A DNA stretch of 39,798 nucleotides from Myxococcales bacterium (lineage in GTDB: Bacteria > Myxococcota_A > Polyangia > Polyangiales > Polyangiaceae): positions 1 to 39,798 of the forward strand of contig JANXMC010000572.1 in assembly GCA_025354825.1 (NCBI GenBank), in the 5' to 3' direction. The position numbers and the translations under genes are program-made. Positions 1 through 2,147 of the stretch are shown here, piece by piece. The notes under the pieces were generated by a model. The model saw only the letters and a program-made list of their open reading frames with translations, was not told the DNA's origin and ran no database searches. Within the stretch, counting starts at the first letter, position 1; each line of letters starts with the position of its first letter.

Positions 1-133
1 TGCCCCCTCCCGTGCCGCCGCCGCCGGTCGCGCCGCCGCCGTCCCCACTGCCGAAGGTGTTCGACGGCGTGGTCCCGCCGCAGGACGCGGCTGCGAGAAC
101 GACAAGCGGAAGCGCGAACACGTAGCTCTTCAT
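1..133 (-). CDS. Lipoprotein, N-terminal fragment (runs off window)
   Basis: Only the first 44 codons are inside the window. The ATG at 133 is preceded by an excellent Shine-Dalgarno (GGAGGTCCC directly before the ATG). The product begins MKSYVFALPLVVLAAASC, a short basic N-region, a hydrophobic core and an AASC lipobox with the acylated Cys at residue 18, followed by a Gly-rich linker (SGDGGGATGGGG). It is therefore an exported lipoprotein; the functional domain lies outside the window and cannot be named. The gene is too short here to appear as a long ORF, but start, ribosome site and signal peptide agree. Confidence 0.75.
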   Translation of the reverse strand, partial: MKSYVFALPLVVLAAASCGGTTPSNTFGSGDGGGATGGGGTGGG

Positions 134-338: not shown

Positions 339-893
339 CTATCGGATCGCGCGATGGAGGCGCGCGTGGGCGGCGTCGCCCGGCCCCGCCCAGCTCCAGT
401 CGATGGCGCCGTCGGGGAGGAGGACGAGGCGCATGGTGCCCCCCTCGACGCAGGCCTTTTGCCCTTCGGTGATGTGCTCGACCGCCATCATCGTGCGCCC
501 GTCGGATTCGCCGATGCACATCCACGCGCCGGCGCACGGGATCGTCGGGTAGCGCGCCTTGGCGCATGCACCGCGCTTGAGAGCCGTGATGTCGACGACC
601 ATGGGCCACGACGTTCCGTCGTCTTGCGTCCCTGTGCCCTCCCACCGACCGAGCAGCGAGAGCGCGGCGCCGGGCGTCGCGTTCGTGCTCGCGGAGGCCG
701 ACGCGTCGTCTGCGTGAGCGGTGATGTCGCTCGTGGCGCCGGGCGTTTCGATCCCCGCTTGCATCGGCACCCTCACGTGGCGCGGCTCGGGCGACTTGCA
801 CGCGGTGAGAGCGGCGGCGGCGGCGAGCACCGCCGTGGTGAGCGCGAAGGCTCGCGCGAGCACGCGCGCGTGCTTCGTGCGTGGAAATCGCAC
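339..893 (-). CDS. Possible separate lipoprotein nested in the 3' end of the YcaQ ORF
   Basis: Alternative reading of the fusion above, same frame. A GTG at 893 would start VRFPRTKHARVLARAFALTT and then AVLAAAAALTAC: five basic residues, a hydrophobic core and an LTAC lipobox with Cys at residue 32. The 184-residue product has a disordered Ala/Ser/Thr linker and then a compact domain (LGRWEGTGTQDDG, ACAKARYPTIPCAGAWMCIG, EGQKACVEGG, IDWSWAG) with several Cys, possibly disulfide-bonded in the periplasm. I do not recognise the domain with certainty; it vaguely resembles small 'GxWxG' domains seen in myxobacterial proteins. No strong ribosome binding site precedes the GTG, so expression could depend on translation of the upstream part. 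Confidence 0.45.
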   Translation of the reverse strand: MRFPRTKHARVLARAFALTTAVLAAAAALTACKSPEPRHVRVPMQAGIETPGATSDITAHADDASASASTNATPGAALSLLGRWEGTGTQDDGTSWPMVVDITALKRGACAKARYPTIPCAGAWMCIGESDGRTMMAVEHITEGQKACVEGGTMRLVLLPDGAIDWSWAGPGDAAHARLHRAIR

Positions 894-2147
894 GCGCGTC
901 GCGCCTACGAAGAGGCGGTAGGCTTCGACGGCGCGCACGAACGCGGCCGTGAACGGCGAGCCCGCATCGGGCGTGGTGCCCTCGGCGTCGTGGAGCTTCA
1001 CGCTGAGAATCTCGAGCGACCCCGAGGCCCGTTCGAACCGCGGCTCGATGCGCCCGACGATGCGTGCGCCGTAGAGAATTGGCAGCACGTAGTAGCCGTG
1101 AACGCGCTTCTCGGCAGGCGTGTAAACCTCCCAGGTGTAGTCGAAGTCGAACAGCGCGCGGACCATGCGGCGATCCCACATGAGCGGGTCGAGCGGCGCG
1201 AGGAAGGTCACCTCGTCGATCTTATCGACGTCCGTGCCGGCGCCGGTGGCGGTGCCGGTGCCAGCGTCGTCGTCGTCGCTGCCCGCCGCGTCGAGCGTCG
1301 CGCGTTCGCTCGCGAGCATGTAGCGAACATCGCGCAGCCCCTCGACCTCGCACGGGACGAGGACCCCTTCGGCCACGAGCTCGCGCACGGCGACGGCGCG
1401 CGCGGCCGCCTTGGCCGTCCCTGACGTGAGCTCGCTTCCGGCGATCGACCCCATGAGACCGACGCCGCGAAAGCGCGTGAGCATTCGGTGGCGTAGCGAC
1501 TCCGCCTCGGTGACGCGACGCTCGAGCGCCTCGCGCGGAAAGAGCCTCTCCACGCGGTCGAAGTGCCGCTTGTTGCCGTCGCGCCGCGAGATGCCGAGGA
1601 CGCCCGTCTCGAAAAGGGCTTCGAGCACCGCGCGCCCTTCGCGCGTTGGCGCCCAGTGCCAGTCGATGCTCTTGTCGTGCTCGCGAAACGCGTTGGAGGT
1701 GAGGGGACCTTCGGCGTCGATGCGCACGAGGATCGCCTTCGCGGTCTTGGCCGACGTCTTCAAGATCCCGCGTCCGTGCCGAAGCTTCGCGCGCTCCCAG
1801 GCGACGCGATGAAACGCGAGCTCGCCGAGGGGCAAAATGTTGAGCGACTTGTTGTACGCCTCGAAGAGCCGTCGCCCGAAGCACGCTTGACCATCACGCG
1901 TTTGCGCCTGCGCGTAGAGCCACGCATCGAGGCCGCGGCGGTGGTAGCCGCGGATGCGCGCGTGCAGCACCATGTCGTGGTTGCGCGCGCCGGTGACTTC
2001 GAGCGGGTCGAACTGCAGCGAGCCCAACGTCTCGACGACGGCGAGCACCGATTCGGGGGCGTCCGGTAGGCTTCGCGGGGGCTTCAGCAAATGGCGGCGA
2101 ACGAGGAAGCGCCGCGCGTGCGCGCGCGTGATCCGGATCGCGGCCAT
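339..2147 (-). CDS. YcaQ/AlkX-like DNA glycosylase fused in frame to a lipoprotein
   Basis: 602 codons. Residues 1 to about 418 are a winged-helix DNA glycosylase of the HTH_42 (YcaQ/AlkZ) family: LGSLQFDPLEV at 41-51 holds the QxD motif (Q45, D47) typical of YcaQ/AlkX, followed by NHDMVLHARIRGY at 57-69. Such enzymes excise bulky N-alkyl adducts and unhook interstrand crosslinks. That part alone matches the usual family length of about 410. Instead of a stop, the frame continues through a basic stretch, a hydrophobic run (ALTTAVLAAAAAL) and LTACKS, which is a complete lipoprotein signal, then about 150 exported-looking residues. Start: ATG 2147, the first Met before the conserved MAAIRITRAHARRF; earlier Mets lie far upstream in non-conserved sequence. 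Divergent from the kinase at 2223. Either a stop was lost or the downstream gene starts internally at GTG 893. Confidence 0.8.
   Translation of the reverse strand: MAAIRITRAHARRFLVRRHLLKPPRSLPDAPESVLAVVETLGSLQFDPLEVTGARNHDMVLHARIRGYHRRGLDAWLYAQAQTRDGQACFGRRLFEAYNKSLNILPLGELAFHRVAWERAKLRHGRGILKTSAKTAKAILVRIDAEGPLTSNAFREHDKSIDWHWAPTREGRAVLEALFETGVLGISRRDGNKRHFDRVERLFPREALERRVTEAESLRHRMLTRFRGVGLMGSIAGSELTSGTAKAAARAVAVRELVAEGVLVPCEVEGLRDVRYMLASERATLDAAGSDDDDAGTGTATGAGTDVDKIDEVTFLAPLDPLMWDRRMVRALFDFDYTWEVYTPAEKRVHGYYVLPILYGARIVGRIEPRFERASGSLEILSVKLHDAEGTTPDAGSPFTAAFVRAVEAYRLFVGATRVRFPRTKHARVLARAFALTTAVLAAAAALTACKSPEPRHVRVPMQAGIETPGATSDITAHADDASASASTNATPGAALSLLGRWEGTGTQDDGTSWPMVVDITALKRGACAKARYPTIPCAGAWMCIGESDGRTMMAVEHITEGQKACVEGGTMRLVLLPDGAIDWSWAGPGDAAHARLHRAIR

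Follow-up and report, generated by a model that had tools for sequence, protein, structure and literature searches.

The window, which is the whole stretch of 39,798 nucleotides analysed here, carries on its minus strand a single frame of 602 codons (339..2147), running from ATG 2147 to TAG 339-341 with zero in-frame stops, as a sequence-only reading of this DNA had reported. It is the top coding frame of its region by codon-usage score, GC3 stays at 0.78-0.95 in every 40-codon block, and GC by codon position describes a coding pattern that is unbroken over the join between its two halves. By homology, both halves are coding in the same frame, because the first has an AlkZ-like Pfam match and relatives at 47-55% identity and the second has a relative at 44% identity. 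A chance open frame downstream of the first half is out, as the homologues of the C-terminal part (identity up to 44%) match it in that same frame.

The glycosylase part

Codons 1 to about 431 (855..2147, minus strand) match the Pfam family PF06224, AlkZ-like (HTH_42), with 124 bits (E 1.3e-35) over codons 38-411 and profile positions 1-327 of 329. The catalytic motif is Q45-F46-D47 (2007..2015, minus strand), in which Q45 and D47 are invariant in a 10-sequence alignment, and their numbering is identical to that of the catalytic residues Gln45 and Asp47 of E. coli YcaQ (PMC7367128). YcaQ/AlkX enzymes are defined by a QxD motif and AlkZ by QxQ (PMC7367128, PMC13303869); the window protein has QxD, in agreement with the motif that the sequence-only reading had named. 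Among solved structures, the best Foldseek match of the predicted fold is AlkX bound to DNA (9zd6, E 5e-23), and its target TM-score of 0.79, against 0.68 for AlkZ (5uuj), places the fold nearer AlkX. By homology and predicted fold, we take codons 1 to about 430 to be an AlkX/YcaQ-type interstrand-crosslink DNA glycosylase.

Where this part ends was judged from an alignment of the window protein with nine full-length AlkX relatives from the same order, 47-55% identical to it. All nine stop 8-20 residues past an invariant arginine, R423 in the window protein (879..881, minus strand), and their tails are often basic, for example PRTRPGRDLAGALRRG, comparable to PRTKHARVLARAF in the window. The AlphaFold model of residues 1-440 is mostly confident, except for an acidic insert near 290-310; it draws the last AlkX strand at 418-420 and then a single helix at 425-450. 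The first 418 codons had been described as a complete YcaQ/AlkX enzyme, of which the identity holds and the end point does not: the invariant R423, the predicted strand and the predicted helix indicate that AlkX reaches about codon 430. Alignment and model together place the true end of AlkX near codon 430-440, inside the signal peptide of the second half.

Two AlkX relatives deserve a remark of their own. One, at 55% identity (L034, JAOUHE010000070.1), resembles sequences of the window's order and yet is on a contig filed under Chloroflexota, which reflects either wrong binning or transfer. In another (L095, G067:C257), the tail runs about 35-40 residues past the usual end, longer than in the others. 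The viral contigs searched hold no copies of the gene, and the YcaQ proteins on the plasmids searched are all distant, each with less than 80% coverage of the query.

The lipoprotein part

Read from the sequence, codons 429-602 have the layout of a lipoprotein, with a signal peptide, an LTAC lipobox, a linker and a predicted 8-stranded beta domain. The signal (801..863, minus strand; VLARAFALTTAVLAAAAALTAC) comprises a basic n-region, which is encoded by the AlkX tail, a hydrophobic core whose hydrophobicity is within the range of sister lipoproteins, and a lipobox with its cysteine. The LTAC lipobox noticed in the sequence-only reading is present at codons 447-450 (798..809, minus strand), and its cysteine, codon 450, falls in a column that is invariant in the family and aligns with the cysteines of seven homologues. 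Lipoproteins carry such a signal at the protein N-terminus; the assembled frame puts it at codons 429-450. The beta domain occupies codons 499-602 (342..653, minus strand) with an AlphaFold pLDDT of about 97. Its best structural matches are weak and are to small barrels, such as the Cap15 cyclic-dinucleotide receptor and nitrobindin, and no Pfam family covers it.

The C-terminal part is 44% identical (E 6e-33) to a gene of another genus in the same taxonomic family. We aligned it with seven standalone proteins of other genera (L005, L007, L020, L028, L029, L100 and L101), each with its own ATG or GTG start, a lipobox cysteine and the beta domain, in which C100, C110, W114, C116 and C138 (numbered by the first row of the alignment) are invariant. 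The lipoprotein genes of L005 and L020 start with GTGA; in L005 these four letters overlap the stop of the frame upstream, whose product by eye resembles an FHA-domain protein. In L141:3-962 (G082:C330) the same C-terminal domain is preceded by a fragment of a Ser/Thr kinase and by a strong transmembrane helix. The domain is a periplasmic module found in more than one layout, as a lipoprotein and in the kinase-helix arrangement of L141. The lipo-invert anchoring domain NF058595 of NCBIfam was tried as an assignment and rejected: the match has 13.6 bits against a curated cut-off of 37 and reflects compositional background, weak matches of this kind are common, and no genome of the taxonomic family reaches the cut-off. 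Just downstream, at window positions 1-133 (minus strand), the contig end truncates another putative lipoprotein, which reads MKSYVFALPLVVLAAASCGG followed by a Gly-rich stretch.

Origin of the join

The two parts occur together in one frame only here. A class-wide search finds the C-terminal family in 21 of 318 genomes, the window's included, and in 0 of the 20 others is it joined to AlkX; nor is there a fused homologue in the overlapping sets of genomes searched, 108 of the family, 184 of the order and 379 of the phylum. Five genomes (G066, G067, G082, G135 and G137) have both a close AlkX and a member of the C-terminal family, always on different contigs. A conserved fusion was rejected, none of the relatives searched being fused. 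These comparisons show two unrelated genes that are separate in all relatives examined, and the join is therefore peculiar either to this lineage or to the assembly. The two alignments that the sequence-only reading had proposed give the same picture from both sides: the YcaQ homologues stop past R423, and the C-terminal homologues are free-standing genes, each with a start and a lipobox.

With a probability of roughly 0.6, a joining event in this lineage made one frame out of two unrelated neighbours, a gene for an AlkX-type glycosylase and one for a small Myxococcota lipoprotein. This requires no coincidence other than a shared frame for the two neighbours (1 in 3) and a missing stop at their boundary. 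The event would have taken away the AlkX stop together with the original start of the lipoprotein, and the AlkX tail (PRTKHARVLAR) would now also supply the lipoprotein signal with its basic n-region. A joining by deletion would leave the signal dependent on AlkX-tail codons, as is seen. The joining is probably a recent accident, with no sign of a selected function. Some observations count against a real joining. The sister lipoproteins start on their own, so that a fusion may have lost part of its function; with the nearest relatives at only about 50% identity, any order of events is tentative; and the source is a draft genome with the join close to a contig start.

That draft, a single assembly, has 859 contigs that total 8.98 Mb and a contamination of 4.6%; its gene content and high GC point to a probable myxobacterium. 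The window begins where contig C729 begins, and the join lies 0.9 kb from that end. An assembly or consensus error, in which the boundary of two separate genes was erased by a miscalled base, a short indel or the collapse of a stretch of sequence, is on these grounds a tentative alternative, and one that fits the separation of the genes in every relative. To set against it, the rest of the window has long clean reading frames without visible frameshifts, and its other genes appear intact. An indel would extend AlkX by about 30 codons in one frame and much further in the second, so that a frameshift, read in the other two frames around the join, gives AlkX an unusual end.

A single wrong base fares no better. 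By enumeration, the codons between 405 and 449 that are one substitution away from a stop are 408, 410, 420, 425 and 432. A stop at 408, 410 or 420 would cut AlkX before R423, and one at 425 would leave it one residue past R423, against 8-20 in the relatives. The in-frame GTGs near the join are codons 419, 429 and 440, and a full-length lipoprotein signal is possible only from GTG 893 or GTG 863, both inside the AlkX tail; with a stop at 432 the sole start left would be GTG 830, ten residues ahead of the cysteine and with no basic residue between. No single substitution gives back both normal genes, that is, a normal AlkX tail and an in-frame lipoprotein start. Because the lipoprotein signal shares in-frame codons with the AlkX tail, a stop loss by one base is a poor fit, and the event here probably involved more than one base. 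Since a single wrong base cannot simply restore two genes, a real lineage-specific joining is favoured over a base-call error, while a larger assembly fault may still account for the join. The earlier suggestion that a stop codon was lost stands in a broad sense, the aligned relatives having their stops and the lipoprotein lying elsewhere in them; as a simple one-base loss it agrees badly with the sequence.

Products of the frame and known systems

There is no stop between the two parts, and ribosomes from ATG 2147 must therefore continue into the lipoprotein. Translation would yield a 602-residue protein whose AlkX part would fold and work in the cytoplasm as usual, and the weakly hydrophobic segment may allow the C-terminal domain to be exported through the inner membrane, with possible lipidation and perhaps cleavage at Cys450 on the far side. 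An exported or partly processed fusion protein is conceivable.

The frame could also be read as in-frame overlapping genes, with a separate lipoprotein made in addition from GTG 863 or GTG 893 and exported normally. This reading is about what is made from the frame and does not conflict with a real joining. The sequence-only reading had placed a candidate start at GTG 893, correctly located as codon 419 (891..893, minus strand), which puts the cysteine at position 32 and sits in the predicted last AlkX strand; from codon 429 (861..863, minus strand) the cysteine is at position 22, a signal of ordinary length and the more typical of the two, with a hydrophobicity near that of the sister lipoproteins, two of which (L005 and L020) use GTG starts themselves. 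Against this, anti-Shine-Dalgarno pairing at neither codon exceeds background. The duplex energy of -2.6 at GTG 893 is equalled or beaten at 43% of internal ATG/GTG codons, and the -0.7 at GTG 863 is no better than this background, whose median is -2.2. Coupling to termination is impossible without a stop, and same-frame overlaps are rare, with 187 pairs (0.26%) among annotated bacterial gene pairs in one data set (PMC2542354). Internal initiation at GTG 893 is thus possible and unsupported, its pairing being like that of a random internal GTG or ATG, and we regard a separately initiated lipoprotein as doubtful.

Two further products are much less probable. We give little credence to a bifunctional pre-protein in which cleavage and lipidation at Cys450 would release the lipoprotein to the envelope while AlkX stays at the inner membrane. 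A literature search on internal lipoboxes and inverted lipoproteins found nothing of use. Equally improbable is a selected membrane-anchored repair enzyme, in which the segment would tether AlkX to the inner membrane and the beta domain would face the periplasm: L141 demonstrates that a layout of enzyme, helix and this same C-terminal domain exists, and AlphaFold draws one helix (425-450) behind the AlkX domain, but none of the family, order and phylum genomes searched has a fused homologue, and the segment resembles a cleavable lipoprotein signal. It is Ala-rich, with a mean Kyte-Doolittle value of 1.93 over 19 residues, in the range of lipoprotein signals and far below the helices of L141 (2.99) and of the kinase next to the 602-codon frame in the window (3.03). 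This hydrophobicity, well below that of true membrane helices, makes a membrane-anchored glycosylase unlikely as a designed product, and such an enzyme, raised as one option by the earlier reading, finds no support as a conserved design.

The contradiction between a cytoplasmic enzyme and an internal lipoprotein signal, which had first drawn attention to the frame, is real in the sequence and is explained by two ordinary genes joined in one draft genome. What lies behind it is either a joining of genes at this locus or a fault of the assembly, and not a new class of membrane-bound repair enzyme; the join is no evidence for membrane-anchored DNA repair as a biological strategy. If real, it would be a clean example of adjacent genes seen while they join in frame, the tail of one being recruited as the n-region of the other's export signal, and it would test the export of an internal lipoprotein signal behind a folded enzyme. 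It also bears on annotation, since gene callers will list a single "DNA glycosylase" of 602 residues and overlook the lipoprotein.

By analogy, the event belongs to a known kind, the stop-loss fusion of neighbouring genes. In Mycobacterium avium, loss of a stop fused the adjacent genes MAV_RS14660-MAV_RS14655, and the fusion protein is expressed and changes growth (PMC8131024). As in the window, loss of a boundary stop joined adjacent same-frame genes in one lineage; the M. avium fusion is a point mutation with a measured phenotype, whereas the event in the window is inferred and has no known phenotype. With the AlkX/YcaQ (YQL) glycosylases of PF06224 the window protein shares the whole domain, Q45 and D47, and its best fold match (9zd6); it differs from them in having no stop at the end of the domain and about 170 extra residues of an unrelated lipoprotein. 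With the standalone Myxococcota lipoproteins it shares the signal, the lipobox cysteine, the linker and the beta domain, although the window copy lacks an independent start outside AlkX coding sequence. L141 is like the window protein in combining a cytoplasmic enzyme, a hydrophobic segment and the same C-terminal domain family, and unlike it in having a kinase instead of a glycosylase and a true, strongly hydrophobic transmembrane helix.
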